Assembly: GCA_024741835.1 (NCBI GenBank) | Contig: JAENRP010000281.1 | Coordinates: 1-58,548, forward strand | Length of the DNA: 58,548 nucleotides | DNA from: Diplocarpon mali | Taxonomy: Eukaryota; Ascomycota; Leotiomycetes; Helotiales; Drepanopezizaceae | Direction: 5' to 3' | In this document: positions 4,467-56,337 of the stretch, piece by piece | How the letters are laid out: every line of letters starts with the position of its first letter | Numbering within the stretch: position 1 is the first letter of the stretch | The notes under the pieces: model-generated | What the model was told of the DNA's origin: nothing | Databases searched by the model: none | Seen by the model: the letters and a program-made list of their open reading frames with translations, nothing else | Made by a program: the position numbers and the translations under genes

Positions 4467-5277
4467 TTAATAACTTACGCAAGGACGATTCCTTTGAGAT
4501 TTCGTCTTTATACGACTTCTCCTCTTGATTTTCTTAGTTTGCAAATAAAAGATTAACCCTTCGAAAACCCTTCTCAAATCTATAATCATTCAGTTATTTG
4601 TAACTATCGGTTGTTATTCCTCTATTATCGACCTTGCAATCACTTAGTTATTTGGAACTATCGATTGCTACTCTTTACTATTAATAACCTTAGATTTTCC
4701 TATTTCGGCCCTTATTTTGCCTCTCCTACCTCTAATTTAAAAAGCTTAAATTATCAGCTTATTAGTACGATTATCGGGTTTCCAGCCTCTCTAATATAAA
4801 GAAGTTTAATTAGCTATTATAGCTACTTTAAATAATAGTAGTTTTAAGTATTTATATAATACTAAACGAAAGCTCTAATTGGGAGTATCTCTTTAGTTTT
4901 TTTAAAAAGCTAAAATGGATACTTCAGCTGCCTTGGCTTGATAGAACTCTAAAAACTGCCTTAGAATTGTCTCTAAAGACCCCTTTATTCTAAAGACTAA
5001 TAGGAATTGTCTTAGAAGCTAAGATGAATCTTTCTTAGAAACTTTATCTTAAAAATTAGTCTTTAATTCGATAAACCTTTTCTTACTACTAGTGATTGCA
5101 ATACCTTTATTTGCTACTTTGCACCTATTAAAGAAGTCTTAGTAAAGTATAAATAAACTTTCTGCAAAAGCCGAATTTTCACTCTTAGGCCAGGCTTGCG
5201 AATAAGAATATAAAAATGTAATTTTATATAACTCGAGTTCTTTACCTTCCCTTTTGATAATTGCACTTGCTTTTTTA

Positions 5278-6492
5278 ATATCGATACTTGAAAATACTAA
5301 AAATATCAATTTTAAACCTCCTTTTGACCCTTTGCCCGAATCTTTTTAAGCCTATCCTAGTTACTCTAAAATTGACTCGGATTTTGAAAACTCTTTAAAA
5401 TACCTTATGCCTTATATTCGACCTAGCTCCTCTCCTATTGAAACAAATAAAGTAATAATGGCCGCCTTTAAAGCTATTACTAATCATTTTCCCTTTTTTA
5501 ATTCTTCTAGCGCTCCTTATTTTATTAGAGCTAATATTACTAATTTCCTTAAATAATATAAGGAGACTTATTATAATTTTAATATTAGATATAATAAGAT
5601 AATCAATCGACTTCCTTACTACTATAATTAAATTAATAAAGATATTATCAAATCTCTACTTAAGTAGAAGCTTTGCGAATCCTAAGAACTCCTTACTAAG
5701 GCTTTTAAATCTGAATTTTAAGAATTTAATAGATAGTAGATTTATAATACTCTAGCCTTTCTAAAGGAGTTTGTTCTTATTACTCGCACTCCTAAGGAAT
5801 TTAAAAACTACTATTAGACCTTTACTTAAGTATTAAATACCTTAATCGATTAGAAGATTCTTAGTAAAGTTAAAAGAGGATGCCTTTTCCTACTTAAGTT
5901 ACTTACTAGCCTTTAAAATAGGATTATTAAGCATTTTAAAATTAATAAGTATAATCTTATAATATACGCTTAATTCGAAGACTTTTCGACCTTTGCTTTA
6001 AAATCAGACCTTAGCAAAAGGACTATTAAAGCAATAGAAAAGGAGAAAGAGCCTACCTCCTCCTTTACTAAAGATCTTAAAAGCCTAGTATAAGAATATT
6101 TAAAGGCTTTAGAGGTTACTAAAGAGGTAAAGAAAAATCCAGTAGTAATTCCCTTTACTTATAGTCTTAGCCTAAGAGTGAAATCTGCCTTAAAAATCAA
6201 GGAACTTAAAGCTTAGTTTTCTAAACTCTATATCTAATGTTTAAAAACCTTAATCAAAGGCCTTCTTTAGGAAACTTATCGCGCCCTTTAGTTTAGTAAT
6301 CGATAGGCTTTAAAAGGTAAAAACTAGTATACGAATTCTAAATACCTAAATCCAGCTTCCTTTAAATTAAATAAGCGAGTCGCTATCTTAGAAAGGCTTA
6401 ATAATTATATATAGCTATATTAAAGAAATTCTTAAATTATTAGTCGAATTTTATATAAAGCTTGGATTTTCTTTAGTAAAGACGCCTCTTAA
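5278..6492 (+). pseudogene. Gag-like protein of GagO-1, RIP-degraded
   Basis: A degenerate 405-codon frame. The start codon reads ATA where the sister copy has ATG, so it has been lost by G-to-A change. The protein is homologous to the N-terminal and central Gag of Gypsy-B (shared blocks such as AAFKAIxNxFP, APYFIRANITxFLK, QYKETYY, LAFLKEFxLIT, SKVxRGRLFLLKL). It carries one copy of the 23-bp palindrome at 6157-6179, at exactly the same point as the copies in GagO-2 and Gypsy-B Gag. I see no zinc knuckle, unlike Gypsy-B Gag. It presumably would have formed particles together with Gypsy-B proteins (inference). Confidence 0.75.
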
Positions 6493-6710
6493 GTTAATTA
6501 AAGTATATATACTTAGGATTACTTGAAATTGTCTTCGAATTTTCTTTAAAATTGCGATTTAATAGCTTTAATAACTTCGAGCTTTTGACTCGCAGGCTTA
6601 GCCTAAGAGTCGTATTACTAAAGGAGGAAAAGGAGTTTTTATCATTTTTATTTATTTACTACTATACCTCCCCCCTTCCCTCTCTCCCTTTATATATTTC
6701 TTTAAAATCT

Positions 6711-6733: not shown

Positions 6734-6905
6734 TAAAAAAAAAAAAAAAAAAACCCTCTCTCCTCTCCCTATCTTTACAACTTTAAGTACTAACTCTACT
6801 TATACTTATTATTCTTATAAATAGGGATTGGTATTCTTAACTTATAAGAGTCTTATATCTTTGCTAATAGTAGTAGGGGCCGCTACTTAAGTTAATTAAG
6901 GCATA

Positions 6906-7152: not shown

Positions 7153-7156
7153 GTAG

Positions 7157-7440: not shown

Positions 7441-9860
7441 TCCGATTAAGAGCCGATCTACTTATTAAGGCTTTCAAAAGCTGGCCCTTATCCGATCGAT
7501 AGGATCTGATAATCTAAGACTTGCTTTCTAATAAAATTGACTTGCGGGCCGGGACCGTAAGTGATAATCGGATTTTCTTTATTAGCAGTACTTGCATCTC
7601 TCTTTATCGAAACGACTTAATTGTAAAGACTAAGACTAATTAATTAAGGAGGTTTAAAGTAGGCTATAAGCTAATAGGCTCCTCTACTTTTTACTATTAT
7701 AGTTAAGAGGTAGAGTCTATAATATATCTAAAGGACTTATTAAGTAAGATTAAATATTATATTATAGAGAAAATAAGAAGGTATAGAGATTGCGTTATCT
7801 ATAAGGCAGAAGTGATAAAGGTATATCTCTACTTCTTATCTTATAATAGAGAGGAATATACTTATAAAAGCACTATTATTAATAGTAAAGTTATCGGTTA
7901 GGAAGCGGCATCTAAAGGATTTAAGTATTACAATTGACCCTTCTTCTTCTATTTCCTCTTACTATTTATTGCTTAATAATATTAAAAAGAAAGAATTGTT
8001 CTATTTAATCGGCTCTAACGCCTTTAAGGCTTTGGGATCAGCCCTGAATTTTATAGCACTTAAAGATGCTTCTATTATTAATAAGTTGGATTTGCGTATT
8101 CTTAAAGAGATAAAGAATTAATTATTAAAGTAGATTAGAAAAAGATCGATATCTTCTACTATGTAAAGAAGTTTAAAGTATTTAATAGTTTCGTTAATAT
8201 TAAATCCTTTATAATTAAGACTATAGTAAACCGAAAGAGAGTAAATATAAAGGTCGCAAAGTCTTCTCCCTTCGATTCCTACGCTAAGAAGATACTATTA
8301 AAAGCGAGTTTTCATTATAAAGGACACTTGAATATTATATCGTTCTTTAAGCTTAAGGTTAAGAATAACCGATTGAGGTACGTTATTATAATTACAAATA
8401 TCCTAATTAATAGATTCCTCTTCGCGCTCTCTTTCTCGCAAGATAAAATAGTCTCGCTTAATATCTAAGAGATTAGGTTTTTAACTTTTATAATTATTAA
8501 AGAATTGAATAATATCCGTAAGGGCGAACTCGTTTAGGATAAGCTATTAAATCTATTTGATAGCTCTCTTAATTGTCTTTAAAGTAGTAGGAATAAGGTC
8601 TTCCTTTATATTATCGTTTCTAAAACAGTTATATATAAATATAAAGAAGTTAAGAACTAGCTCCTTTAAGTTATTAGGAAAGGAGTTTAAGCAAGTACGC
8701 AATCCTTTGGTTTTAAATTGCAAATTAGCTAAGGTAGCTATGAAATAATCCATCCTTTTTAAAGGTTAAGCTAAAATAGGTCGTTTAGCTAAAGGAGAGT
8801 CCTTTAAAGATTTTGAAAATTCTAAAGAGGCTGCGCTAAGCGTTTAAGCAGTTTATTTAGCAGCGGTTTCTAAAATCATTTCAATAAGAGGCAGGTTAGG
8901 TCTAATTCCAAAATTATTACTTCTAACTCCTAGTCTAAGACTATAAGTTAAATTATATAGTTTAGCACTTATTATATCTTTAGGCTAAGAAGCGAATTTC
9001 AAGGCAAGCTTAACTATAAATAACCAATTCCCTTCTTTATTATTAAAGAAATCTTATTTAAACCTTAGCATAAGAGTCTAGTTCTCTTTTAAAATAAGCA
9101 AACTATAAGTAGAAGCGCAAAGCCTTAGCATATTAATAATAGTACTATTAGGTAAGGTAATATCTGCAGCTTAATTTGATCTTTTTATAGCTCTATTAGC
9201 TATTATAAGTACTGCATTAGATAGGCCTATAAATCTACGACCGCGAATTCGATTGCCTTAGAATTTTACTACTCCTTTTTAAATAATAAAGAAATTAAGA
9301 ATCTAAATAGCTTTAGCAGTAGGAGTATTTTCCTTAAGAATTTTTAATATTACTCGCCTTCTATTATTAGAATCAATATTTATCAGGAAGTGCAAACGAA
9401 ATAGGAGTCCTCTCTTATTAATAGCTGAATTATCCAATCGTCGAATAGATTCTTCCCTTTTATCTTAGTCTATTCTAAAAGTATTAGCTAAGGTTATATA
9501 TTAATTTGCGTTAATTAAGAATTCCTCTTTAGAGATTCCCTTTAGTCTTAATTTACTAGTTAGGAAGTTGTTAAATTAGAGAATTCTAAGGGCCATTTGG
9601 GTTAAAAGGTTGTTAATAGCATTCGCGTAAGCTAAAAGGAGTTTTTATTACTCTATATCTCTTAAAGCTGCGTAAGTCGATTTGAAGCTCTTTAATAATG
9701 CAATAGCTTTGCCGTCTTAAGAGAAGTTTATAACTAGTGTTTATTTATCCCTTATTATAATAGATAAAACCATTTATAAGTTCTTTAAAGGCATATTACT
9801 TATGAAAGATAGGGAGTATAAATAAGAGAGTTTAATAGGGTATAAGAATTAAAAGGGCAT
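7440..9860 (-). pseudogene. Unrecognised long coding remnant of about 800 codons, downstream of and in frame with Gypsy-B pol
   Basis: I do not recognise this protein. One minus-strand frame stays readable from ATG-like codons at 9860 or 9794 (MPLKNL-stop-MVLSIIIRDK) down to about 7440, with stops at roughly the density expected if Gln and Arg codons were mutated. Its content is protein-like: charged, mixed segments such as LKGISKEEFLINAN, KREESIRRLDNSA, RGRRFIGLSNAVLIIANRAI, KEGNWLFIVKLALKFAS, MDYFIATLANLQFKTKGLR and FILREREREEESIN. Two copies of the 23-bp palindrome lie in this frame (8926-8948, TYSLRLGV; 7540-7562, TYGPGPQV). Removing Gypsy-A and one TSD copy joins it without a frame break to the end of Gypsy-B integrase. 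It could be a third Gypsy-B protein, a protein of the adjacent LINE, or part of another unseen element. Confidence 0.5.
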
Positions 9861-13200: not shown

Positions 13201-15368
13201 GACTATAATTTATAGAAAGACTTGGATTTTGATTCCCGCCTATTAATAGGCGGCCGCTAGTTTTTAATTCCTATAGAACTAGCTTAAAATAAATCATTTA
13301 TTAAAATAGTTACTTATATTAATAGTAGAGCTAATATTTTCGGTATTATTAAAACGTCTTTAGTATATTAGCTCTTTTAAAGACTTAGGGTAAAGTTTAT
13401 TAAATTACTTAAACCAATTACTCCTATTAGCTATAATAGCCTTAAGGGAGAAACTATTTAATTTACTATCTTACTTACCCTTATAATCGATAGGCGATAA
13501 ATAAACTTCCCTTTTTTAATTATAAGCTTAAGAGCAACTGATGTTTTGATTAATAGGAAGTTCCTAAAGTACTATAACTTTAAATAGTCCTATGGAAAAG
13601 GGAAAAAAAGTATATCTTAGCTTAAGGATATGCCTATTGTCTTCTACTTTAATCGATGCATACTAATCGATCTTTTGCAGCTAATAAAACCTCTAATAGC
13701 TTAGTAAGATATCGATTGTTGAGCAGCTATAATAGACGCTGAGGACAAAGACCTAAGAATGGCCTAAGCCTAGCTCTTAGTACTAATAAGCAAAAACTCG
13801 AATTCCACTCCTAGGCCTAGCCTATAAGTGAAAACTGCAAACTCGAATTCCACTCCTAAGCCTAGCCTATAAGTGGCCTTTTATAGACTTAAGGATAGCA
13901 GTTTCTTTAAAGACTTAAAAAGAGATTTAAACTATATAAAGAAGGCCTTACTAAAAGTACTAAATCCCTTGCTCCCTCTCTTAGTAAAAAGGAACGCTCC
14001 TTTAAAGCCGGCTTATTAGATCAGCCTGATCTTAGCCTTAGCAATCAGCGCCCTTTACTACTACTTTATAATTAGGGCAAGATAAGCTATATAAACTTAA
14101 GAACTAGCACTTAAAGAGTTTATATTTATAAGCTCTATTTATAATCTAAACTAAGAGATTAATCGCTAAAAATCAGCTAAGCAAATTGAAATTAGCTCCC
14201 TTAGCCTTAGTTTAGCGCTATAAGCTAAGTATAAGAGTAATAATAAGCTAATAAACCAGAAGCTCCTACCTTAGTATACTAAGTTTAAGAATGTCTTTAA
14301 TTGCTAGGCCTTTGATTAGCTATTAAAAACTAGGCTAGAGGTAGATTATAAAATCGAACTAATAGGCGAGAATAACTTAATAATCGAACCCTTCTACCGC
14401 CTTACTGATAAATAGCTCTTAAAGGTCAAGAGCTATATTCTTAAGAACCTATATAAAGGATTTATTAAAGCTTCGAGTTCCCCTTAAGTAGCCTTAATCC
14501 TCTTTATTAGAAAAGCTAATAGCTCTTTATATCTATATATCGATTATTAAAAACTAAACGCCTTAATAAAGAAAGACCCCTACCCAATTCCACTTATTAA
14601 TAAGATAATAATACGCATTTTAAAAGCTTGTATTTTTATAAAAATCGATATATAATAAGCCTTCTACTATATTCGCATATTAGCTAATACTAAAGACCTA
14701 ACTACTTTTTATATATATTATAAGACTTATAAATATAAGGTTTTGCTATTCGGGCTAATAAATAGGCCTGCCACCTTTTAAAGGTTTATTAATAATATTC
14801 TCTTTAAGCACTTCGACAATTTCTACTCTACCTATTTAAATAATATTCTAATCTATTTAAAAAACTCCCTTAACTATAAAATTTATATTAAAAAGATCTT
14901 AGGAATTCTCTAATGCTATAGCCTTAAAATAGATATTAAGAAAAGCAAGTTCGGAGTTACTAAGACTAGGTTCCTAAGGTTTATTATTAGAGTTTATAAA
15001 ATTGAGATAAACCCTAATAAGGTCTTAGTCATTTAAGAGTAGAAATACGCTAAGAATATATATAATATACAAAGCTTCTTAAGGTTTTATAACTTCTATT
15101 AAAGGTTTATTCAAGGCTATAGTTATATCTGCCGACCTTTAATAGCTTTTATAAGGAACATTCCTTTTAATTTTAATAACGCTTATAAGGAAGCTTAAGA
15201 AGCTCTGCGCTTAAGCCTTTAAACGACCCCGATTTTATACTACTATTACCCTTAGAAGCAGATAAGGCTTAAGACCGACGCCTCTAATAGCATAGTCGCT
15301 AGCATACTCTCCTAACTCTAGGAAGACGATAACTACCACTTAATTAAGTACTTTTTAAAGATTATAAA
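13201..15368 (+). pseudogene. Gypsy-A Pol, first part: protease, reverse transcriptase, start of RNase H
   Basis: This frame is -1 relative to gag (DFDSRLLIGG near 13225). The retropepsin site reads TYINSRANIFGIIKTSLV at about 13312-13365, where the family has DSGA; Asp to Asn and Gly to Arg are RIP-type changes. Two palindrome copies (13807-13829, 13852-13874) follow in the linker, each read STPxPSLQV. The reverse transcriptase covers about 14450-15000, with LYLYIDYQKLNALIKKDPYP and a catalytic box TYLNNILIY (14827-14856) that stands for YLDDILIY. RNase H begins with LKTDASN near 15255. The frame is cut at 15368 by Copia-F and continues at 23475. Confidence 0.9.
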
Positions 15369-23474: not shown

Positions 23475-23894
23475 ATAAATAACGCTAAGCTAAATTACCC
23501 TATTTATAATAAGGAGCTCCTAGCGATTTTTAGATCGTTTTACTAGTATAAGGCAGAGCTACTTAAGGCTTAGAAAATAGTATATATATATATAGATCAT
23601 AAAGCCCTTAAGTACTTTATAATAACTAAGGACTTAATAGCCTAGTAGGCTTGCTAGGCGGAGTTCTTTACTAATTTCAACTTCCTTATCATATACCAAA
23701 TAGGTATAACGAATACGCTAGCTGATATACTCTCCTATTAAGACTAAGAGCTAACCCCTCTTAAGGCTAGGAAACGAGCTTTACGCTACTAGTAGCTCTT
23801 GCCCGATGATAAGCTCTTTATAGAAGTACTTACTACTAGAAACGATTCTACTCCTAGGCCCGGCCTACAAGTAACTTTAGCGCAGATCAATTCC

Positions 23895-23917
23895 ACTCGC
23901 AGGCCCGGCCTACGAGT
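23895..23917 (+). repeat. Dispersed 23-bp palindrome, near-perfect coding copy in Gypsy-A
   Basis: ACTCGCAGGCC, a central C, then GGCCTACGAGT. In the pol frame it is read S-T-R-R-P-G-L-R-V. It is the second of two copies 45 bp apart in the RNase H-integrase linker. Confidence 0.9.
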
Positions 23918-33250: not shown

Positions 33251-33487
33251 GTTAGTTAGGGCATATATACTTAGGATTACTTAAAATTGTCTTCGAATTT
33301 TCTTTAAAATTGCGATTTAATAGCTTTAATAACTTTGAGCTTTTGACTCGCGGTCCTAGCCTAGGAGTCGCATTACTAAAGGAGGAAAAGGAGTTTTATC
33401 ATTTTTATTCGTTTACTACCGCCCCTCTCCCCTTTCCCCTTTTCCTCTATATTTATTTCTTTAAAATCCACTCGCAGGCCTGACCTA

Positions 33488-33926: not shown

Positions 33927-35340
33927 CCTTTAGCCTAGGATCTCTAATGCAAAGCATCCTATACTTATTAATATGCATAACCCTAGTATTAATAAAACGA
34001 TAGAAAAGAGGACATTCGTTATAATACTTATATAAAGGGCAGTTAGGTTCCTTATTATTGCAAAAGTTGCAAGTTAGTCTTTTTCTATTACTATTCCCTT
34101 AGTACCTTATAGTATTAATATTAGCAAAGTGCTAGTTAGGATCAATTTCTCCTTCTTTAGTCAACTATTAAGTTCTTATATTAGCTGGTTATTCCGAATG
34201 ATAAGAAGTAAGAGTCTGGTAATAGGAACTACTAAGTTGGCTTATAATAGCCGAGTTTTGCCTATTACCAAATTAGGGAATATGCTATTTTTCCTATAAG
34301 AGATTATTAATCCTAGTTTCTAAGCTTTAGATTCGGAGTTTTACAAATTGGGTCTTTAGCTCCTTAATTCTAGGGTTAGATCTTACTCTTAAGTCGGGCC
34401 TGCAAGTAAAAGGTATGATTACTAGGTTCTTCTTTACCTCTTCTATAACTTCTAAAGCCTTCGAGTGTTCTTGGACCAGGCTCTTAAGGTCTTTAGTATA
34501 AGAGGGAGTAAGGGCTTTTTCCTACTTTATAATATTAATAGTTCTTTTACTAAGATCTGATTTTAAAGCAAAGGCCGAGAATTCCTTAAATAAGGCGAAG
34601 GTTATAAGGTCTTGCTTATTAATCCTAAAATGCTTAATAATCTTATTTCAAAGGCCAGTAGGTAATTTAAGTAAGAAAAGGCGACCTCTTTCGACTTTAC
34701 TAAGTATTTTCTAACTAATTAAGGTATTTAATACGCGAGTAAAGGTCCGATAGTAGTTCTTAATTTCCTTAAGAGTATAAGTAATTAGAACAAATTCCTT
34801 TAAGAAAGCTAAGGTATCGCGAATCTGCTATCTTTTAAATTCTCGGAATTTAAATTTAAAGGCCTTAATAAGGAGTTCCTATAAACTATAAGTTTTCTAT
34901 TTAAGGAGGGATTTAATAATATCTTTACTTATATAATCATAGTAGTAAGGAAGTTAAGAAATCATATCCTTTTATATAATACTAAAATCGTAATAAGTTT
35001 CCTTATATTGCTTAAGGAAATCAGTGATATTGGCTCTTATAAAGTAAGGAGCGCTAAGGGAATTAAGGAGGGGAAAGTAATTAATAATAGCCTTAAATGC
35101 AGCTATTATCGTTTTATATTAACTGTCTAAGTTAATAGAATCTATAGAGGGTAAAAGGGAAGCTTTAATATTATAAGATTGATTGCTAAAAGGAGTACTT
35201 CGAAATTTAAAAGGGCTTAAAGAACGTTTAGAATCCGAGTCAATCTTAGAGTGACTAAGACGAGTTTAAAAAGATTTAAATAAAGGGTTAGTAAAAAGTT
35301 TAAAATTGTTATTATTTTTAGTATTTTCTAATATTAATAT
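33927..35340 (-). pseudogene. Gypsy-B Gag with zinc knuckle, RIP-degraded
   Basis: The capsid and nucleocapsid precursor of Gypsy-B. The frame starts at an ATA (a lost ATG) at 35340 and reads RLSHSKIDSDSKRSLSPFKF, IIAAFKAIINYFPLLNSLSA, PYFIRANITDFLKQYKETYY and LAFLKEFVLITYTLKEIKNY, all shared with GagO-1 and GagO-2. A palindrome copy at 34385-34407 is read FTCRPDLRV, at the same alignment point as in the Gag-only elements. Near the C-terminus a Cys-rich motif reads TCNFCNNKEPNCPLYKYYNEC (about 34075-34010, here with one residue over typical knuckle length), which fits a modified CCHC knuckle. GagO-2 is inserted just after it. Confidence 0.8.
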
Positions 35341-36089
35341 TAAAAAAGTAGGTAGCGGCCTTAAGTTATTTAAGGATATCTTTTTATTCTTCTACTTATA
35401 GGCTAAGCCTAGGAGTAGAATTCCGGATTCTATTAAAACTTTAATCCAAGTTTGCTAAAAGATTCTAAGTAGGTATTAAACAGCTAATAGGAGCGTCGCA
35501 ACTAATCGCAATAAGATAAGGTTTACTTAATTTAAAACTAATTTCTAAGATAAGGTTTATATATAAGATTCTTCTTAGCCTTTAGGCTAATTCCTATTAG
35601 TCCTTAGAATAAAGGGGTCTTCGGAGACGATTCTAAGGCAATTTTTAAAGTTCTATTAAGCTAAAGCAGCTGAATTATCAGATTCGGATTTCTAAAGATT
35701 CTAAAGAGATACCTCCGGTTAGAGTTTGCGCTTAGTATTACTTAAGTACTCGAAACTACTGCTATTTGAAATTGCTATTATAGGGTTTATTAAACTTTTC
35801 ATACTAGAAAGCCGAAAATTCCGAGAATCTTAAAGTTAAAGAGAAAAATAAGGGTTTTTCAAAGTGGAGCCGAAAAGGGAAATTCTAAAGTTATTAATAA
35901 TTGCTAAACGAAAATCGACAGTTCTAAGTAACTAAGCGATTAAGGATAAGGTTTTTAAAGTTAATTAAAATGCTATAAGTGTTTCAAAAAGATTTTTCAA
36001 AGGCCGGTCTCTTATCTGCGAACTAAGAGATTGATAAGGTTATATAAGGATAAAAATCTTAAGAAATCGGTCCTTGCGTAGGTCACTAA

Positions 36090-38460: not shown

Positions 38461-41400
38461 ATGCCTATGAATAGCATTCGATAAATTCCATTGATTAGAG
38501 TCTCCTTTACAAATGAAAAGGCTAATCGATATTTTGAGTTTTACTTAATTAATAATATATAATAGCGTTATTTCAATAATAAAACAGTGGCTACTCCCCT
38601 TTTAGAGCGCTATGCAATAATCCAAGCTTACGTAAGATTCGTTACTATAGCTGAATTATTAGGACTAATAGCTGAGATTACCAGCTTAATTGCTAAAAGT
38701 ACTCTACTGCTTGAATTACCTAATCTTATAAAGACTAATATATAGTACCTTAAAATCGAATATAATAGTTTATCTCCTCCTCCTCCTCCTTCTCTTCCTT
38801 CTCCTTTCGACAATTCCATATATATATATACAAATAAGATATCGTTATCTTCAGCTGCCCTTAGCCTCCCTAAGTCTTAAAAGCTTAAGGGTGCAAAGGA
38901 CTATAGCTAATAGAGGAATAAGGTTTTAAACCTTATAAAGTCAAACGCCTTAATTATATATCTTTATATAAAAGCTAGAATATATACTCTACTTAAGGTT
39001 GACTTATAAGACTATTCTATCACTCTTAAGGAAAGGGACAATTAGGTTAAATAAGAAGTTAAGGAATCTTAAATAAAGCTTATTATTATACTTAATTGCA
39101 AACTAGGCCTATTAGCTTATATAAAAGGCGATAAATCTGCCTTAAATATATAGGAAGCTCTTTAAAAATAGTACAAAGGATTTGGAATAGTGCTTGAATA
39201 TAATGTTATATAGACTTATATTACTATTAAATATAACGACTTCAGCTTACTTAAAGCTTATATCGTCGCCTTTAGGCTTTTAATTACTAAATTAGAAGCT
39301 CTCGACTCTGCTTTTCCCTCTTATTAGCACCCTATTATATTTATTACTAGCTATTCTAGTAGATAGCCCATTTAAGCAGATTAATAACGCTCTAACCTTT
39401 GCTTAGCTATAGCAATTGGATAAAAATCAGAGATTACGCTTAAAGCTCTTATTAAAGATATTATTAATAAAGCTTAAGCCTTATAAAGTTTAAAAATGAA
39501 CGGAACCGTCTTATATAGTAATAAATCGGCTAGTAAGCCGCATTCCTTTAACTATAAGAAGTTAGAAAACAAAAGAGGTTTTAAAGACTTAAAGAAGAGC
39601 ACCTTTAGGAATACTACTACTTCCCTTAACTCCTCCTATCTTTATTATATATAATTAGAGCTATACTATAAGGCAGAAGATTGCTTTGCAATTAACAAAT
39701 CGAAAAGAGAGGCTTAAGAGAAGGACTTAAGGAAGAAGTACGTATTCTATCACTTTAAAGGCAAGGACGATAAGTCCTTGCTATTATTATTACCAAAAGG
39801 TAAAAAGCCTTTTAAAAAGATTCAAAAGGAAGACGAAGAGTTAGATAATGACCTCTTTAAGCATACTATACTATTACTAACCCTAGGGCCAATTCTTACT
39901 CGCGAGCCGGGCCTAGGAGTCAATTCCTCACTAGGAGGCGATTCCTCTTTAGGACCGATTTCCACTTATAGGCCAGGCCTAAGAGTCAGTTCTTCTACCT
40001 CTTACTTCTTATTAAAATTGAGGAATTATTAGCTATATAATATAGGTGCTAGTAAGCATATCTCTAATAATCTCTTTAAGTTTACCTCCTATACTACTTA
40101 AGATAATCTACCCTCTTTAAGTATAATTAATAGATCTATTCAACCTTTTAGCGTTAGTACTTGCAAAGTCAATACACTTAAATCTAATAGAAAGGTATAT
40201 ATTCTTAAGTTAATTAATACTCTTTATATACCTTAATCACCTATCTACTTATACTTTAGTAGTAAACTTAATAAAATCAAAGGCTTCTATCGAAATAGTA
40301 AGCTATTCCTATTTAATAAGAAGGAAATTTGTACTATCGATAATAATATATATATTAATAAGGAATAGCCTTCTACTAACTCCTCTAGTTATATAAGTAG
40401 ATATGCTCTCCTAGCTGCTATTGAAAATGGACCTCTTAATATTAAGCTCTAGTACTATCGATTAGGCTACGCTAGCCTATAAATAGTTAGAAAGACCTAA
40501 TCTACTATTATTAATATGCAGATCAAGGAAATAAAATCAGAAAAGATACGAATTTGCGCTTCCTGCGAGAAAGGCAGACCTCTCTAATACGTTAATAAAC
40601 GTTTAGCTTGCCCTCGACTTATAAAGGCACTTAACAAGCTATACGTTAATATAGTTTATCTAAAGCCAACTGGCCTTAATGGCTATAAATACGCTTCTAT
40701 CTTCACTTGCTTAGCTATAATAGCTAGGTAGGGATGGACCTATATAAATAAATCTAATGCCTTTAAGGTAAATAAGAAGATGATCAGCCTTTTACAAATT
40801 TAATATAATTGTATAATTAAGCAGTAGAGAACTAATAGAGGTAAGGAGTACTCTCTTATATAGATGCGAATACTTGTAGAAAACCTTAGTATAATTTTAG
40901 AAGAATCTAATCTATATACGCTAGAATAAGATAGTAGATTAGAACGATTAATTTGTATACTAATAGAAAAGTTGCAAATAGCTATAATTGACTAAAATAT
41001 CCCCTCCTTTCTTTAGCCTTACCTCCTTCTTTCGATAATATATATTACTAATCTTATTGCCTTTAATATTTTAAATGGCAAGACTCTATATAAGGTCTTT
41101 TGGGATGATATTGAGCCTAATAAGCCTTATACTCCCTTAATTAAGTATCTTAGAGTATTAGGCTATTGCATTTATATGCTAATCGAGAAAGAAAAGCGAA
41201 CTTAAAGTAATAAACTCGCTTTAAAAGCAGAGGTAGGTACTTTTATCGGATTTAATAGCAGAAGTATCTATCAGATTTATATACTATCGAAAATAGGTGA
41301 AAAGATTATTCGATTATCTTACATTCGATTTGATAAAGACGGCTTGATTATAAAGCTGCAATTAAAGGGTGATTTCACTCTTAGGCTAGGCCCGCGAGTC

Positions 41401-43251
41401 ACTTCTTAAAATAACGAAATTTTCACTAATACGCAGGGACCGCGAGTCAATTCAAGAGAAGCTAATAAAGCTAAGCTTCTAAATCTAAAAAAGAGAGAAA
41501 GACCTTTTAGTTTAAAGAATAAGCCTTACCCTTAGCCTTTTGAAAAGAGAGCTACTTGCTCTACTACTCTTAGATTCAAAGCTAATAACCTAAATAATAA
41601 AGAAGCCTATTTAGGCGCCTTTTATATGGCCTTACTCGACTCTCTATACCCAAATAACCCGAAAACAGTCGAATAAGCCCTCTCTTACGCCGACGCCGAT
41701 AAATAGCGATCTGCGATCAACTCTGAGTATAATTCCCTCGCTTATAAGGATATATAGGTAGTAATGAAACGCTTAGAACTATCTAAAGATAGTAAAGTAC
41801 TTAGATCGAGGCTTATCTTTAAAATAAAAAGAGACTAAAACGGGGAAATCTCCTAATAGAAGGTCAGATTCGTTATATAAGGCTATATGCAATAATAAGG
41901 TCGAGATTATAACTAAACCTTTGCTAGCGTTTGCAAATCTGCTATTTAAAAGATTGCAATTGCGCTTGCAGCTCTTTATAACTTTAAGCTAGATCAATTT
42001 AATATTAAGATAGCTTTCCTTAATTCAAAAGCTGACTTTAATATCTACGTCAAGTTACCTTTTAAATATATTTAAGATAAGGTCGTTCTTTTACCTTAAG
42101 ACTACTATCTTAAGCTTTTTAAGGCCTTATATAACTTAAAGCAATCTTTATAACTATACTAAGAAAAGCTACGGTTTAAGCTATAAAAGCTCGATTTTCA
42201 ACCTTTTAATATTAACAATTGCATATATATCAATTGTACCTTTCGGATTCTCATTATTACTTACGTCGACGACTTCCTTATAGTAGTAAAGAAGGGTAAT
42301 ATATATAATAAGTTTAAAAGAGATCTTTGCAACCTCTTCGAAATCATAGGTGGCAAACCGGCTAACTACTTCTTAAAAGTATATATAGTTAGAGATCGAT
42401 AAAATAGAACGATCTTACTTTATTAAGACGCCTACGTTAATAAGGTTCTTAAACGTTTTTATATAATTAAATACAAGAGCATACTAACGCCTTTTACTAG
42501 TAGCTATAAAGTTCATATAGTCAAATTTGAAGGCCAAGCCACTTTATAGGAAGTGAAGCTATACTAAGAGATCTGTGGTTCTTTATAGTACTTTGCGTAC
42601 TATACGCATTAGGATATACTATACTACTGCTCTATTCTTAGCAAATTCCTTATTAACCCTTTGCTATAATATATAGCAGCTTTAAAATGAGTTTTATAAT
42701 ACTTGCAAGGAACGCGATTCTATTATACTACCTTCGGAAGCAAAACAATTAACCTATAGCTTTAGAAATTGCATAGCTACTGCGATTCTGACTAAGCAAG
42801 TGATAGAAGAACTAGAGCCTCCTATTCTAGTGCCGTCTTCTTCTTTAATAATAGCATAATCACCGCCTCCTTTAAGCGATAAACTATTATCGCTCTCTTA
42901 TCTATAGAAGTAGAGTATATTGCTATATGCAAATTCGCATAAGAAGCCTCTTAGATACGCCAGGTACTTAAGGAAATGGGCTATAGCGGCGACAATGCTA
43001 TTAAAGTCGAGATAATCTGCAATAACTAAGGAACCCTTTATCTTACTGAAAACCCTAAATATCATTAGAGAATAAAGTATATCGATATCAAGTTCTATTA
43101 TATTTGGCAAAAGCTTTAGAAAGGCTATTTAGACCTTTAGTATACTAATATAAAAGATAACGCCGCCGATAGATTTACTAAGAGCTTAAATAGCTCTAAC
43201 TACGCCGCCTTTATCAAATTGTTAAATATAAAGGTTCTACACCTCGATTAA
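38461..43251 (+). pseudogene. Copia-C Gag-Pol polyprotein, single frame with RIP stops
   Basis: ATG 38461 (MPMNSIR) to TAA 43249-43251 is exactly 1,597 codons; every break I saw is an in-frame stop, with no frameshift. Gag includes AIIQAYVRFVTIAELLGLIA and a Pro-rich turn (38770-38800). The protease site reads NIGASKHISN near 40045, for DTGAS. The integrase zinc region ends ICASCEKGRPL (40550-40580) and the core includes KLYVNIVYLKPTGLNGYKYA and NRGKEYSL. The reverse transcriptase contains DYNQTFASV and an intact YVDDFLIV (42259-42285). RNase H reads YCDSDQASDRRTRASYSS, EVEYIAICKFAQEAS, YIDIKFYYIW and NAADRFTKSL. Palindromes are at 39898 and 39964 (Gag-protease linker) and 41377 and 41425 (integrase-RT linker). 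Confidence 0.93.
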
Positions 43252-43523
43252 GTGGTAATTTTTTTTACACCTCTATTATAAGGTGATTTTTTTTGCACTT
43301 CCTTTAAAGGGTGATTTTTTTTAACTCCTAGGCCGGGCCCGCGAGTTGATTTTGACTTTTTAAAGGGTGGATTTCCTACTCTAGAGTAGAGCGCGCTAGC
43401 GAACTCTATTCTATTTCCCATATCTGCAGGTAGATTTTTCATATGAAACTGTAAATTATAACAAAAGTTATAACGTTATATATATTGCTAGCAAGTACCT
43501 TTAAAGGTCTCCCTAAAGGGGTA
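43252..43523 (+). other. 3' untranslated region of Copia-C with triple repeat and palindrome
   Basis: Three direct copies of a unit of about 33 bp containing GGTGATTTTTTTT lie at 43251-43322. A palindrome copy follows at 43324-43346. A purine run CTAAAGGGG precedes the 3' LTR and is the probable polypurine tract. Confidence 0.7.
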
Positions 43524-43939: not shown

Positions 43940-44242
43940 CCCTTACTTAGACCTTACTCTAATTGACCTATAGTTAAGAAAATAACAACTATCCTTTTAT
44001 ACTAATCCAACTCTTAAGTATCTCTTTAAATTAAAAACAATCAATTAATAGCAACTTCTATTGAAATTACTAAACTCTACTTATAGGGTAGGATTAGGAG
44101 TTAATTTTCCTAAAAGCGTTCCTTTATAAGATTATATAACTTGACTTGCGGTCTAGGCTTAGGAGTCGATTTAAAAAACTTTCCTTTATAAGACTATATG
44201 ACCTGATTCGCAGGGCGGGCCTAGGAGTCGTCCTTAAGCCTA

Positions 44243-47200: not shown

Positions 47201-49288
47201 CGCGAATCTTTTATACATTAGCTAATACTTTAATAGGCTTTCGGCTTCTAATAGCTTTAGTAGCCTATTATTAGTCGATACTTTATTATTAGCGGCTAAA
47301 AAGGATTAGTAATAGTAGTTTAAGGTTTTACTATTTTCCAATTGCAAGCCTGGCTTAGGAGTCGTTTTTAATAAAATGGCAAGATCTACTTATAGTCCTA
47401 GCTTAGGAGTCGTTTCTGACGAATCTGCGAAGTTCACTCGCGGTCCTAGCTTAGGAGTCATTTTTGCGAATTTTACTTATAATCCTAGCCTAAGAGTTAT
47501 TATTAATAAATCTGCAGAATCCACTTGCAGTCTTAGCCTAAGAGTCATTTTTACTAAATTCACTTATAATCCTAGCTTAAGAGTTATCTTTAAGGATATA
47601 TTGCATTCGACTTATAATCCTGGCTTAAGAGTCATTTTCGCGAATTTCACTTGCGATCCTAGCTTAGGAGTCTATCTATTCTCTCTATCCTTATTTAATT
47701 ATATTAAGGTAAAGAGTGCACTTTCTTTAAAGGAATCTACTTATAGGTCTGGCCTAAGAGTTAATTTCTATAATATTACCTTTAAAATAATATAAAGTCT
47801 ATCTTTGATTTTAGCCTTAAAGATTACTTTATAATTATTATTTATAAACTATAAAAATTGATTATTAAAAACTCTTATATAATTCAACTTTATATAGATC
47901 TTATAGCTAAATAAAAGATTAATACTTAAGCTAGGTATAAGGAGAACATTTTATAAAAGGAAAGAAATGCTAGCGATATTCATTTCTATTATACCTATTG
48001 AGTCTATATACAACCTTTTACTACCAACCTTAATAAAGCGCCTTTTTATTTTAATAAGCAAGCCTTCAAATAGGTAGGATTTATTAATTATATATACTAT
48101 ATAATTAGTATTACTATACCAGTTGGATTTAAGGATCTTATAAAGATCGACTTTTAAAATATAAGCATTTTTATTATAATTATCATTTGAATTATTAAAA
48201 GTGGATTTAAGTTTAAATAACTTACTATTATTATTAGAGGTATTTGCTAAAGTTTTGGCTAAATAGCCTTTTCCTTTGCCTTTCCTTAATAGTTATAGCC
48301 TTTAGTAGGATAAGGGCAGTTTGCTTCTTAACTTTTGCTTCAATTGCTTTTTAATATTAAAGCTAGCGACTATATTGATCAATTGCCTTTTAACTTTATA
48401 ATTAGTAATATTATAAGTACTATTATAAAAGTAGTATCCCTAATAAGCTTAAGGGCTTGTCCTACGCTCCTTCCTCTTCTTAGGCTTATTATTACTTTAT
48501 AATGCGGCATTTGCCGATTTAAAGCGTCTTTTAAAGTCTTACTTAATAGTTTAAAAGAGGTCGATCTTCTTATAAATCTTAAGGTTAGGTTAGATAAGAA
48601 GAGATTGTTTCGCAATAGCAAACTTAAAAGGGAGGCTATTAAGTAGGAAATTAAAAAGCTAAGTTTCCTTAAAAGTTATAACTATCCTAGGATCTGTAGC
48701 TCTTACTCTCCTCCTTACTTTATATAATATTAACTAAGCAAAGTCTATATTTATATTTATATCCTTGCTATCTTTATCTTTTCTATATTAAAATAAAGTA
48801 ATCTATTATAGTAAATGCTAGGTATTAAAGGCAGTTATCTAAGAGTATTTTACCTTTAAAGTATTCTATCTTATCTTTACATTATTATAAACTTAAATAA
48901 AATCTCAATCTTCGTCGCTTAAACCTTTATTAATCTTAAGCTTGCATTTAGCTAAGGCCAGCTTATACTCCTTCTCCTTTTCTATATTTAAGATCTGCCT
49001 TTAGAATTCTCAGTTATTATCTACTAAAGCTCTTAGGCTAAGCTTATTTAATATATTTGGCAAATCCTTAGTAGTTATATTAGCTATTAAGGTAGAAGTA
49101 GTCAAATCGGTAGAGGGAGTATAAGAGGCTATTTTCGCGTATTTAATAAGTATCTTTTGAATCGCTATTTCGATGCCTTTGCTTTTAAAGTAAAGCTCTA
49201 AATCGTCGAACTATTATTATTAGTTCTTTTAAGAGAGTTAAAGGTCTTTAGGTCTGGTGTTTCGATCGGAATCGGAAGCTATTGCCAT
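44243..49288 (-). pseudogene. Copia-D Gag-Pol polyprotein with an in-frame palindrome array
   Basis: ATG 49288 (MAIASDSDRNTRPKDL) to TAA 44245-44243 is exactly 1,682 codons in one frame, with RIP stops. Gag contains FDDLELYFKSKGIEIAIQKI and a Lys/Glu-rich helix (NIEKEKEYKLALAKCKLKI). A degraded knuckle is near 48440-48380 (GYYFYNSTYNITN). The protease site is near 48120 (YSNTNYIVYIINKSYLF, then FIKVGSKRLYIDSIGIIEI). A 9-unit palindrome array (47339-47761) separates protease from integrase. The reverse transcriptase box LLLYINNIIAAAK (about 45265-45230) stands for YVDD, both Asp mutated. The RNase H end reads IIANGFIKLLKTVAKFKAFK, matching ADGFTKPLK. Two further palindromes follow in the 3' untranslated part (44144, 44206). 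Confidence 0.9.
47339..47761 (-). repeat. Array of nine 23-bp palindromes in Copia-D pol
   Basis: Nine degenerate copies spaced mostly 39 or 48 bp (13 or 16 codons) apart. The plus strand reads as repeated S/F-T-x-x-P-S/G-L-R/G-V, giving a false 139-codon open frame. The minus strand, which is the coding one, reads similar peptides. Spacers contain alternating ATTTTTGCGAATT-like and AATCTGCAGAATC-like blocks. Confidence 0.88.
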
Positions 49289-50929: not shown

Positions 50930-51318
50930 TATATTTTAATTAACTTAAGTAGCGGCCCTTACTACTTTTAATAAAGAATATTAGACTCTTATAAGTTAAG
51001 AATACTAATCCTTATTTATAAAAATAATAAGTATAAGTAGAGTTAGTATTTAAAGTTATAAAGATAAAAAGAGAAGAGAGGTTTTTTTTTTAACTTATAG
51101 GCTAAGCCCGCGAGTAGATTTTAAGAAAAGAAGTAGAAGAGAAAGGAAAGGAGAAAGGTAAAATAATAAATAAAATAAAAAGGAAATAAAAACTTTTCCT
51201 CCTTTAGTAATATAACTCTTAAGTTAAGCTTATAAGTTAAAAGCTTAAAAATTAGCAAAGCTATGAAATTGCAATTTAAAGTAAAATTAAAGATAATTTT
51301 AAGTAATTTTAAGTATAT

Positions 51319-51513: not shown

Positions 51514-51990
51514 CCCTTACTTAAACCTTACTTTAATTGACCTGCAGTTGAGAAAATAATAACTATCCTTTTACGCTAATCCAACTCTTAAGTATCTCTT
51601 TAAATTAAAAATAATCAATTAATAGTAACCTCTATTAAAATTACTAAACTCTACTTATAAGGTAGGACTAAGAATCAATTTTCCTAAAAGCGTTCCTTTA
51701 TAAGACTATATAACTTAACTTGTAGCCTAGGACTAGGAGTCGATTTAAAAACTTTCCTTTATAAGACTATATGACCTGACTTGCAAGGCGGGCTTAGAAG
51801 TCGTCCTTAAGCCTACTAAGCCCTTATTATCTTCTATAACCTTAGTATATCTTTGAACGCTTTGAACTTTGCAACTGTCTTTAATGGCTTTATAAATCCA
51901 TTTGCTACTATTCGATCGGTTAGGATATAAGTGATTAATAACTTATTTCTTATAATAAGGTTGTAGATAAAGTAGTAGGCAATATTAATA

Positions 51991-52899: not shown

Positions 52900-55828
52900 A
52901 TTAATATATTTCAATCGCTTATATAAGTATGGATTTTTTATAAGTGTAATCGCCCTTATATTATCTATTTAAAGATTAATATAGTTCTTATCTTATTTAA
53001 TATACTTAATAAAACCTATATCTTTTAGAATTTAAGTGATTTATAATTCTTACTTACAATTTAATAATATTAATATATACTTGGCTTTAATGCTTGCGGT
53101 AGCTATTGATTTCTACTTCTTACTTTTTTATAATATAGGTCTATTATATAGTACTGCTACGCTTTTAAATATACTTTTCTAACCTTTTATATTTGTTTAA
53201 TTAGAATTAGTATATACCTTAAGCTTTGCGCTTATATATTTTATTAGTCTATATCTTACCTTTTATATGATTATTAATTAAAGGTACCTTTTAAATCGCT
53301 TAACTGCGTTTTTATATTAAATCGTTAGATCCTTTAGGTTCTGACTAAGTTGCCTAGTAATAAAGGCGATATCTGGTCTTATATATACTATAGTATATAT
53401 AATTGCTCTAATGTCCTATTAGTACTTCTTTAGATCTTCTCTTTACTTATTTTCATTAATAGGCTCTAACTTATTATACTTTCCTTCGATTAGAGTACGC
53501 TTTGGCTTAAAGTTGGGAGTATAAGTAAAGAGTCCTATTCGGTCTAGGATTTTCTTAATATACTGCTCTTAGTCTAATTAGAGTTTTTAAGTAAAGCGGT
53601 TCTTTATAATGCAGATGCTAAGGATCTTATAAATTCCCTTTAGATCCTTAGTATTAAAACGTTTTTAAATAGTTATAAAGAACTAATTTAATTAAATAGT
53701 TGTTTTTGCAGCTATAGTAATATTATTAATATATAGTAGTAACTTGATTCTACGCTTAGTATAAGTAAATAGATAAGGGTTAGCTAGGCTTTGAATAAAT
53801 CCTATTTCTATTAGAGTAAAGCTATATAAGAGGTTTTAATTATAGGCTGATTGTTTAAGCCTATAGATATTATAAAGTATATAAAGAGAGTAGCTAGCGC
53901 GTATAAGAATACCGTTAGGTCGGGAGAGAAAAATCCGTTCATTTATAGTCGCTTTAATAAATGCATTTTTAATATTATACTATTTGCATTTAAGGTCCTT
54001 AGCAGCTATTATTACTATAAATATGCAAAGGGTATCTATGCGAACTATTAGCGCGAACGTGTCGAAGTAGTCTTTTCCATACTATTAAAAGAAGTCCTTA
54101 GCTATAAGCCTTGCCTTATAATATTCTAAGGTCCTATTTGCATATATCTTAATTATAAAGACCCACTTTATTAAAACTACGTTTATATCCTTTAGCGTCG
54201 GTTCCTTTATTTATATGCTATTTGCAGTAAGAGAACTTATCTCCTTTTAGATTGCCTTATTCTATGCTACTCTATTCTTTAGATTATTAATAGCTTTATT
54301 ATACGTCTTTAGAAGAGAGATTTTCATTATCCCTTTAATAGCTAAGAATGCATTATCTTTATTAAAGCTCTATTAAAGTTCAAGCTTATAGATCTTATAT
54401 ACTATTATAGCCTAAATACGCTTAGACTCGCGTTTACTTAAGGTATCTTCTAGTTCTAGGTCTTTATTCCTCTTTAAAGGCGTAGGTTCAGCTGTAGGTT
54501 CTATAGGCTTATTATCTAAGGAACCGTTTTCTAATAGTAAAGGCTTATTGTTACTTATACCTATTTTAGGAATATCCTTTACTATAGGTGCTTTAATTAA
54601 AGGGATGACGAATATGAAGTTATTCTATACTTTAGGTAGTTCGCAGATAATAGGAATAGTCTATTCGGCCTTTGGGCGACTAGTAGGTCGTCGATTAGCA
54701 GGTGCGCTTAATATACTTAAGCTAAGAGAAAGGGGTTATTAGTTCGGCTTAATAGTATTACTATCGACTAGTATACCTTGCAAATCTCTAGGTATATAAA
54801 GCTTTAAGGATAGCTCCTTCCTATTTTGAGATTTATTAAACTTAACTATTAAGAATATAATTACTTGCCTTAGATTTAGCGTATATACTATCTATTGCTT
54901 TATTATCTATTTAATATATTTAATAAATATATACTTTTTACTTTAATCTATTAGCTTTTTACTCTTTATACCCGCGGGCTAGGACTTTAGGCTAATATAG
55001 GAGTAGTAGACGCTTTTAAAGACGCAGATACTATCTAGGCTTAGTTTCTATTTAAAATATATCTTATATAGTAATATTCGAGTACTATTAACTATTAGTC
55101 TATTACTTATTCTATTTTGCAAATATATATCTGCTTTAATTGCAAGGTCCTAGAATTCTAATAGTAAGTCAGCATCTTATAGTAGAGCGCGATAGTTAGT
55201 CTCTGCTTACTAGATGCTTTGCTTAGCGATACTATTTTAATAAGAACCTTTATATATTACAGTTGGTTTATAATAAACTCCTTATTTTGCTTATTTATTA
55301 AGCTTTACCTTAATCTCTAATGCGTTATTAGACTTAATAGCTATTAGCTTTAACTAGGTCTAGCATTCCTTTATCACTTTCTAAGTTTCTAGCTTTTTTA
55401 TAAGCTTAGATTTAGTCTTAGCGCAAATGGTTTATATCTATTAAGTAGAGTTATCTACTATTTAAGAAAACTAATTATTTCCTTTAATTAAAGTTGTAAA
55501 TAGTCTAGTAGTATTAATAGATATTAGTGCTAGTATTAAATCTTTCTATAGACTAAGTTTAATTTGCGTTCGATTTTGAAGTTTTATTAGCTTGCAAATT
55601 CGGCATACTAAGCGATCCTTTAGTACTTAGATCTTCTATTTTAGAATTAAGACCTTATATAAGCCCTTTAATTTCTTTAGCCTTAGATGTGCGAATCTTT
55701 TATATATTAGCTAATACCTTAATAGGCTTTCGGCTTCTAATAGCTTTAGTAGCCTATTATTAGTCGATACTTTATTATTAGCGGCTAAAAAGGACTAGTA
55801 ATAGCAGTTTAAGGTTTTGCTGTTTTCT

Positions 55829-56337
55829 ACTTGCGAGCCTAGCTTAAGAGTCATTTTTAATAAAATAGCAAGATCTACTTGCGGTCCTGGCTTAGGAGTT
55901 ATTTCTAACGAATTTGCGAAATTTACTTGCGGTCTTAGCTTAAGAGTCATTTCTGCGAATTTCACTCGCGATCCCGGCCTAAGAGTCGTTATTAGCGAAT
56001 CTGCAGAATCCATTTGCAATCTTAGCCTAAGAGTTATTTCTACTAAATTCACTTATAATCCTAGCCTAAGAGTTATTATTAGCAAATCTGCAGAATCTAC
56101 TTATAATCCTAGCCTAAGAGTTATTTCTACCAAATTCACTTATGATCCTAACTTAGGAGTTATCTTTAAGGATATATTATATTCTACTTATAGTCCTGGC
56201 TTAGGAGTCATTTTTGCGAATTTCACTTGCAATCCTAGCTTAAGAGTCCATCTATTCTCCTTATCCTCGCTTAATTGTATTAGGGCAAAGAGTGTACTTT
56301 CCTTAAAGGAATCTACTTATAGGTTTAGCCTAAGAGT
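55829..56337 (-). repeat. Array of eleven 23-bp palindromes in Copia-E pol
   Basis: Eleven copies, two more than in Copia-D. The coding (minus) strand has an open piece at 56052-55795 in the main pol frame, with TLRPGSRVKFAEM, TLKLRPQVNFANSL and TPKPGPQVDLA. The opposite strand is also open (55817-56371) because the unit is palindromic. Confidence 0.88.

Follow-up and report, generated by a model that had tools for sequence, protein, structure and literature searches.

A repeat of 23 letters is scattered through what seems to be the nuclear genome of the apple blotch fungus, Diplocarpon mali. The repeat is real, and every copy that can be assigned belongs to a retrotransposon of either the Copia or the Gypsy class, which are unrelated. 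We tentatively interpret this near-palindrome as an ultra-short, non-autonomous hitch-hiker that may have spread between Copia and Gypsy LTR retrotransposons, a spread predicted to go via template switching of reverse transcriptase.

Abundance and consensus of the repeat

The window (the whole stretch of 58,548 nucleotides that was analysed) contains 48 sites matching ACTCGCAGGCCNGGCCTGCGAGT with at most 8 mismatches in 22, against a Markov-1 expectation of 1.15, and 25 sites with at most 6 in 22 (expectation 0 in 20 simulations). At a mutation-tolerant threshold the window has 26 palindrome sites, versus none for each of 20 palindromes with shuffled halves. Across the 49.4-Mb genome, which a single host protein of 700 aa matches to Diplocarpon coronariae, 722 places match the palindrome at no more than 3 mismatches. 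Its density is far above chance. The first-pass annotation had counted about 30 single or paired copies plus two arrays, in agreement with our 48 sites (30 single or paired, 18 in arrays of 8 and 10). All 10 copies in twenty sampled 10-kb stretches (a 200-kb sample) fall in the three that bear repeats; the other 17, gene-rich ones included, have none.

The less mutated copies yield a near-palindromic consensus of 23 bp, ACTC[G/C]C[A/G]G[G/T]CC-N-mirror, flanked on both sides by a weaker symmetric shoulder, RAWTY-N. The half-site of the first-pass annotation was rejected as the ancestral form in favour of this one. Positions 5 and 19 are mismatched in 42 of 50 places examined (out of 94), and positions 9 and 15 are complementary in 29 of 50 (also out of 94; 25.8 expected if independent); paired changes do not keep the symmetry of the palindrome. 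Position 3 is T in 52/52 symmetrised rows, obtained by a search that itself leans to the consensus. On RNA folding, three of five copies beat their shuffles, at about -12 to -18 kcal/mol, and two are no better. The palindrome has no match in Rfam, and a pattern scan of IMG/VR returned 0 matches; the same scan of prokaryote contigs returned 3, near the computed chance (about 1-2).

Sites in the window

Positions are those of the whole window, and strand is given where assigned.

5181..5203: palindrome, 4 mismatches, in the element at 4.2-7.6 kb; site shared with 31945, L032 and 35394; outside the TxRPGLRV register (stop counts)
6157..6179: palindrome, element at 4.2-7.6 kb; shared with 32915 and L032:5501
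6588..6610: palindrome, element at 4.2-7.6 kb; shared with 33346, L006 and L032
6711..6733: palindrome, 1 mismatch, followed by an A-run, element at 4.2-7.6 kb
7540..7562: palindrome, repeat family other than the 4.2-7.6 kb element; shared with L001, L002, L003, L005, L009 and L013
8926..8948: weak palindrome, 9 mismatches, outside the count of 48; shared with L022
11588..11610, - strand: palindrome near gag start, Gypsy family 1 (L033/C48/C160); context as at L033:2452, with an open 64-aa frame, TPGPGPRV; gag by eye, without Pfam match
13807..13874, - strand: two palindromes, 45 bp apart, Gypsy family 1 linker; L033 has three; protease-RT position by eye, without Pfam match
23850..23917, + strand: two palindromes, 45 bp apart, Gypsy family 1 RNase H-integrase linker; one copy in L004 and L046
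25966..25988: palindrome, Gypsy family 2 (mismatch scan, flank comparison)
27030..27197, - strand: integrase H2C2 zinc-binding domain (PF17921), Gypsy family 2; E 2.4e-7; 1 TAG and 3 TAA inside
27400..27422, - strand: palindrome, Gypsy family 2 RNase H-integrase linker; register one base later, here LASLARE; L010 frame; RNase H end by eye
29367..29551: two weak palindromes, 162 bp apart, 7 and 8 mismatches
31945..31967: palindrome, second copy of the element at 4.2-7.6 kb
32915..32937: palindrome, second copy of the same element
33346..33368: palindrome, second copy of the same element
33470..33487: palindrome half-site, interrupted by an N-run
34385..34407: palindrome, inverted third copy of the 4.2-7.6 kb element
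35394..35416: palindrome, inverted third copy of the same element
39898..39986, + strand: two palindromes, 66 bp apart, open 104-aa Copia frame, gag side; likely counterpart of L036:3442
41377..41447, + strand: two palindromes, 48 bp apart, Copia integrase-RT linker; aligned with C185, C235, C35 and C94
42187..42399, + strand: part of a Copia reverse transcriptase (RVT_2); E 2.8e-5; score of 24.3 bits, short of the 31.6 set as curated cut-off
43324..43346, + strand: palindrome, Copia 3' UTR, T-run on one side and TGATTTT on the other
44144..44228: two palindromes, 62 bp apart, without open frame; same pair at 51718/51779
47340..47761, - strand: array of 8 palindromes at no more than 8 mismatches and a ninth at 9, mostly at 39 or 48 bp spacing; coding strand by eye, both strands being open with mirrored registers
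51093..51115: palindrome adjoining a T-run
51718..51801: second copy of the 44144/44206 palindrome pair
55829..56337, - strand: second copy of the 47340..47761 array, 10 palindromes at no more than 8 mismatches

Host elements

When the palindrome is excised and the 100-bp flanks are compared, matches across the joint are limited to members of one repeat family. Each retrotransposon family has its own palindrome sites, found in many copies of that family. As first proposed, the palindrome is common to unrelated retrotransposons, namely Copia and two Gypsy families, and occurs both in a UTR (Copia 3' UTR) and in the coding linkers of Copia and Gypsy. Common descent of the sites is therefore excluded between the superfamilies.

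In the Copia family the sites lie on the gag side, in the integrase-RT linker and in the 3' UTR. Pfam domains SH3_retrovirus and RVT_2 surround the linker palindromes of L036, which has another palindrome downstream of the stop codon of its RNase H-like frame and one, at L036:3442, that by our own arithmetic is in frame with gag_pre-integrs. Among 20 RIP-damaged pieces of the window searched against Pfam, RVT_2 was the one credible match, alongside a weak integrase match (rva_4, E 0.01). The peptide is absent at the integrase-RT linker in three Copia relatives from other sources, one of which covers half the query.

The palindrome lies 243 nt upstream of the H2C2 domain in 4/4 measurable copies of Gypsy family 1, and 223 nt upstream of it in 13/13 of family 2. 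The Gypsy element L046 reads NTLADTLSRRD...GDSTRGPGPQVTS...H2C2, and a D. coronariae protein from another assembly (2.3-Mb contig) carries NPGPRVKPANS at the Gypsy linker. One ORF-intact Gypsy stretch that was examined (511 bp of C102) has no palindrome, its best match having 11 mismatches.

Reading register

In both Copia and Gypsy the palindrome sits inside coding frames without a frameshift. The 35 non-zero differences in Copia linker length fall into 13 size classes, and every one of them is divisible by 3 (40 of 42 rows used, two short fragments being left out). The TxRPGLRV register is common to the Copia integrase-RT and gag-side copies and to the gag, PR-RT and RNase H-integrase copies of Gypsy family 1; the free positions 9, 12 and 15, like the constant position 3, are third codon positions in it. 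The first-pass annotation had assigned a single register to all coding copies. This fails for Gypsy family 2 (25.9-27.4 kb), where 13/13 measurable copies read one base later than the other anchored sites (family 1: 4/4 via H2C2, 6/6 via rve). Anchoring covered 40 copies in each of the two families, of which 13 in family 2, and 4 (H2C2) and 6 (rve) in family 1, were measurable; the anchors were about half of the 150 H2C2 rows and 6 of the 70 rve rows, chosen for contigs able to pair. At site 5181/31945 the TxRPGLRV register is closed on either strand: four copies have between 22 and 29 stops per 208 codons.

A random register had been named as refuting the in-frame mobile element, and this refutation holds in part: at least two registers are in use, and frame-aware insertion is therefore unnecessary. 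Since the register differs between families, what they share is DNA (or RNA) and not one peptide. In the extended consensus, TxRPGLRV is the only register without stops for every flanking base, and survival alone would bias copies towards it; the TxxPGxxV excess would be survival for that reason.

Copy number and flanking sequence

One Copia linker site holds 1, 2 or 3 palindrome units with flank-like spacers, a variation that, from the sequence, looks like tandem duplication. Searches for an empty site found none: in four contexts, 40 scored copies (from 160-255 candidates each) all continue through the site without a site-sized deletion, and none of 42 Copia linker length rows is short enough to be without both units. 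With the joined Copia linker flanks as query, four matches span the joint, and each of the two readable ones contains one palindrome.

Treated as direct repeats, the flanks agree at P 0.0006-0.05 over 26 sites and at P 0.007-0.07 over the 16 non-array sites, depending on word length, and they agree better as direct than as inverted repeats. A control in which both flanks are moved outward 14 bases is equally or more significant (P 0 to 0.004), and therefore no target duplication is shown. Flank comparison and shifted control establish the shoulders neither as longer palindrome arms nor as target duplication. Among the little-mutated contexts, TGATTTT stands on both sides only in the Copia 3' UTR, where a T-run separates the left one from the palindrome. 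The earlier reading is supported as to the sharing among unrelated elements; mobility in the strict sense, by an empty versus filled allele or by target duplication, gains no support from the 40 scored copies per search or from the flanks set against the shifted control.

Origin of the repeat

The copies occur in two unrelated classes and in more than one reading frame, and have therefore likely spread from one retrotransposon to another. Such spread would take place during RNA-to-DNA copying: the GC-rich hairpin would stall reverse transcriptase, so that a short patch could be transferred to the RNA of another element packaged with it. Insertions in linkers and UTRs would survive through causing little harm, and the spread was probably over before most copies decayed through repeat-induced point mutation. 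We regard as distinctly unlikely the bolder proposal that the 23-bp palindrome is itself a retrotransposon parasite, and so the smallest mobile DNA of any eukaryotic nucleus known, which jumps between Gypsy and Copia during reverse transcription, duplicating a 7-bp NRAWTYN target and adding 30 bp per insertion with the frame kept in any register.

Alternatively, recombination or template switching may have exchanged whole tandem-repeat linkers among families; the palindrome would then be their best-kept part and no mobile unit would be involved. Several families have arrays of 39-48 bp period, tandem duplication explains the varying number of Copia units, and TCTGC(G/A) is seen by eye in the spacers of both Gypsy family 1 and the 47-kb array. 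Nevertheless we find such exchange rather unlikely, given that the 22-nt spacer middles of Copia and Gypsy family 1 are unmatched by eye and that single copies in UTRs and linkers have just the 23 bp and a weak shoulder in common. A repeatedly gained binding site or RNA signal, of use to the retrotransposons in transcription, packaging or dimerisation, is an unlikely explanation of the palindrome: gag, coding linkers and the 3' UTR are odd locations for one signal, tandem arrays speak against it, the one ORF-intact Gypsy stretch examined does without it, and repeated convergence on some 20 specified bases is implausible, even though 23 bp are near-identical at many sites of different families, several copies occur in one element and the shoulders are symmetric.

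Selection for a linker peptide, TPGPGPRV, of which the palindrome is a codon by-product, would fit the register shared by Copia and Gypsy family 1 and the variable third codon positions. As a general account it is contradicted by the 3' UTR copy, the different register of Gypsy family 2, the copies without open frame and the invariant third position 3 (under a search favouring the consensus), and it is highly improbable. An assembly or library artefact can practically be dismissed, as the copies mutate along with their flanks and differ between families, and the D. coronariae peptide comes from another assembly.

Comparison with known repeats

Rickettsia palindromic elements (RPEs) are short palindromic repeats within unrelated coding sequences whose frame they leave unbroken, and in this the Diplocarpon repeat resembles them. 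However, RPEs are bacterial, about 100-150 bp long and found in host genes, whereas the Diplocarpon repeat is 23 bp, ascomycete nuclear, located in retrotransposons where placeable and read in more than one register; in the 200-kb sample of 20 stretches no insertion into host genes was seen, the 17 stretches without copies including the gene-rich ones. Miniature inverted-repeat elements (MITEs) are likewise short, non-autonomous and built on an inverted repeat, but the Diplocarpon unit is much shorter, and its flank agreement as direct repeats is matched by the shifted control.

Selfish palindromic, hairpin-forming repeats multiply in the organelle DNA of Volvox carteri, with reverse transcriptase suggested as one route; they occupy intergenic and intronic DNA, and nuclear copies are proposed to be inert organelle transfers (PMC2670323). 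The ultra-short mobile elements of Podospora and the GC clusters of yeast are short GC-rich or hairpin repeats of fungal mitochondria for which mobility has been proposed (Koll et al., cited in PMC2670323), and repetitive hairpin elements of sponges have mobility proposed at the RNA or DNA level (PMC2800124). The Diplocarpon repeat is like that of Volvox a short palindromic repeat that multiplies, three of its five folded copies beating their shuffles, but unlike the Volvox repeats and GC clusters its placeable copies sit in retrotransposons and not in organelle DNA; the Podospora, yeast and sponge elements are mitochondrial and not within LTR retrotransposon coding frames. The Conserved Hairpin Site of GalEa elements, which are fungal Copia retrotransposons, is palindromic as well; it has 9 bp and a single fixed position next to the 5' LTR (PMC5445492). 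The Diplocarpon repeat differs in sequence, is dispersed over Gypsy and Copia, and lies on the gag side, in the integrase-RT linker and in the 3' UTR instead of the primer-binding position.

We found no nuclear case of such a repeat in the open-access literature, and word searches of the genome papers on D. coronariae and D. rosae gave no instance of "palindrom" in the main text. The exact motif occurs in three papers on animals and cells, where, to judge by the titles, it coincides with a primer by chance.

Implications

If the repeat is a hitch-hiker, unrelated retrotransposon superfamilies would trade short sequence in the nucleus, and selfish palindromes, familiar from organelles and bacteria, would be present in eukaryotic nuclear DNA too. 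The palindrome would then be a supplier of in-frame linker peptides, and its copies would form a natural record of template switching by LTR elements, legible in any Diplocarpon genome.

General features

The genome scanned comprises 49,369,952 bases on 676 contigs, with the window as contig C281. The window has a G+C content of 30.8%, its longest stop-to-stop frame is at most 188 codons, and CpA and TpG occur at 0.38 and 0.41 of expectation. Such CpA/TpG depletion is the signature left by repeat-induced point mutation (RIP), a process established in ascomycetes. Across the window (1-58548) the depletion spares the GCA/TGC context (observed/Markov expectation 1.67/1.63; CCA, TCA and ACA, 0.65-0.93), an unusual context preference. 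A 700-aa host protein encoded on another contig shares 100% identity with PZA11_001820 from Diplocarpon coronariae, an apple leaf pathogen of the order Helotiales; identity is 92% with a shorter model under the name Marssonina coronariae and 76-78% with D. rosae. The host is accordingly taken to be D. coronariae. The genome paper on that species gives 34% repeats, 20.7% Copia and 5.7% Ty3 (PMC11527701).

Abundance and distribution of the palindrome

The 23-bp palindrome is a real, dense repeat that crosses retrotransposon families. In the window, ACTCGCAGGCCNGGCCTGCGAGT is matched at 48 sites when up to 8 mismatches are allowed (1.15 expected); 18 of them belong to two arrays and the other 30 lie elsewhere. 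Allowing up to 6 mismatches leaves 25 (expectation 0, 20 simulations); a score forgiving RIP transitions finds 26 sites, against 0 for each of 20 shuffled palindromes. Across the whole genome, 722 places have 3 mismatches or fewer, and the degenerate form ACTCSCRGKCCNGGMCYGSGAGT, which is less mutated, is matched exactly 94 times (chance number about 0.0002 by composition-free arithmetic), the reversed control giving 0 in both cases. The symmetrised profile has a shoulder, RAWTYN, flanking the 23 bp; all 52 rows have a pyrimidine at -2. An IMG/VR pattern scan gave no palindrome match, and 257 Gb of prokaryote contigs gave 3, about the chance number. The papers searched contain no palindromic repeat of this kind, and we know of no earlier report of a family-crossing one.

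Among 20 stretches of 10 kb chosen ahead of scanning, 17 had no site at a mutation-tolerant score of 3.5; L022, L032 and L033 together carry all 10 sites (2, 4 and 4), 8 of which reach 2.5. L025, L026 and L027 each have one extra match at up to 7 plain mismatches, unsupported by the mutation-tolerant score. L022 and L032 are AT-rich; in L033, whose retrotransposon is less mutated, all four sites accordingly fall in bins with 45% GC or more. Twenty pieces (21 units) were taken from the 50 of 94 little mutated places listed, and their flanks, judged by eye, are all of six known contexts: the Copia 3' UTR, linker and gag side, two Gypsy family 1 sites, and the repeat family with a unit at window 7540. 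By flank similarity the 72 sites in the sequences examined form 26 contexts, which exceeds the true number of distinct sites since array members and both units of one Copia linker are counted separately.

The array at window 47319-47792 has an open + strand frame of 158 codons; that at 55805-56368 has one of 188 on the + strand and one of 85 on the - strand. Window 51996-52899 holds 2.2 copies of a 413-bp unit (91%) and adjoins the 44-kb element's second copy. The 4.2-7.6 kb element also occurs a third time, inverted, at 34264-35783, just behind its second copy.

Sites in Copia elements

L036 (contig C185) is a little mutated Copia copy.

Features of L036, minus strand, in order
gag_pre-integrs, E 4.2e-5, below cut-off
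integrase-like piece
SH3_retrovirus (PF25597), E 1.2e-18
linker with DLTPGPGPRVNSHSHDFTPGPGPRVNSNSEE
RVT_2, E 1.5e-17
RNase H-like frame, by eye

Two further units are present, one on the gag side and one in the 3' UTR, past the RNase H-like frame's stop. Window 41377/41425 is the same linker site. The linker peptide is missing in three Copia relatives, two JGI proteins and one of Podosphaera aphanis covering half the query. Linker length was scored in 40 of 177 candidate copies; 35 have another length than the query, every one by a multiple of 3 (13 size classes), so the elements preserved the frame for as long as they were active. The linker has one palindrome in C244 and C297, two in C185, C235, C94, C204 and the window, and three in C35; the spacer looks by eye like the left flank, so tandem duplication is the probable origin of these numbers. 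At window 43238-43323, in the Copia 3' UTR, stands a tandem array of 28-bp units with GGTGATTTT, directly followed by a palindrome at 43324.

Sites in Gypsy elements and reading register

Two Gypsy families carry units: family 1 (L033, L046, C48, C160) and family 2 (window 25.9-27.4 kb, L008, L010, L022).

Units in the Gypsy families
Family 1, near the gag start: one unit, placed by eye, no Pfam match
Family 1, after a protease-like stretch: three units in a 15-aa repeat, placed by eye, no Pfam match
Family 1, between RNase H end (by eye) and H2C2 domain: one unit
Family 2, between RNase H end (IDFKVKYILRMKNTAANSLLRR; by eye, no Pfam match) and H2C2: unit

At the RNase H-H2C2 linker L046 (54% GC) runs NTLADTLSRRD...GDSTRGPGPQVTS.... 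The family 1 unit starts 243 nt ahead of H2C2 in 4/4 measurable copies and 459/462 nt ahead of the integrase core in 6/6, and its register is therefore ACT-CGC (TRxPGxxV). In family 2 the unit lies 223 nt ahead of H2C2 in 13/13 measurable copies, with register A-CTC-GCA and peptide LAS(L/P)A(C/R)E. The window copy has 9 stops in 208 codons in this register versus 22 and 30 in the others; its distance to H2C2 is 225 nt, which would place H2C2 in the other frame, and close by it differs from its kin by a one-base indel. The first-pass annotation had read all the coding copies that it translated in one register; the two families use two, so what the sites have in common is their nucleotide sequence. 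The site at 5181/31945, present in the 4.2-7.6 kb element and its second copy, may be coding in a further register, because lengths there vary only by multiples of 3 (26 of 26 non-zero differences, though in only three size classes, 23 of them in one +9 class); stops exclude the TxRPGLRV register on both strands. Given the shoulder RAWTYN...NRAWTY, the TxxPGxxV register is stop-free for any base and the other two can have a stop. Its excess would thus need only survival. Single register and frame-aware insertion are the points on which the earlier reading is partly corrected.

Gypsy elements at G000:C102:133108, C200:6014 and C498:5858 have open frames of 964-1024 aa with no stops. The 511 bp read of the C102 element contain no palindrome (best match, 11 mismatches).

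Symmetry and probable mobility

Pair 5/19 is mismatched in 42 of the 50 listed little mutated places and pair 9/15 complementary in 29 (25.8 expected if independent), and all 8 places pairing at 5/19 fail at 9/15, many of the 50 being non-independent copies of one family. In RNA folding, 3 of 5 copies were better than shuffles. On these counts and foldings, perfect hairpins show no visible upkeep, and the palindrome is not clearly kept as such. Through the 5/19 mismatch the unit even acquires an orientation.

Different superfamilies (Copia, Gypsy) carry the palindrome at non-homologous places, and these positions show that it was either transferred or gained repeatedly. In four contexts searched for an empty site, all 40 scored copies (of 160-255 candidates each) run through the site, and no scored Copia linker row is short enough to lack both units. 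Flanks agree better as direct than as inverted repeats, the best of 14 offsets tried being 7 (P 0.0075), but a control with flanks shifted outward 14 bases is equally or more significant. A 7-bp offset and the 23 bp would make 30 bp, a frame-neutral gain. Mobility of the palindrome is likely.

GC-rich near-hairpins are a known kind of pause site, and reverse transcription would be the one process common to all carriers. Co-packaged RNAs could let short patches be copied across elements. After transfer, each family would have multiplied its own copies, one linker would have expanded through tandem duplication, and RIP would then have decayed most copies.
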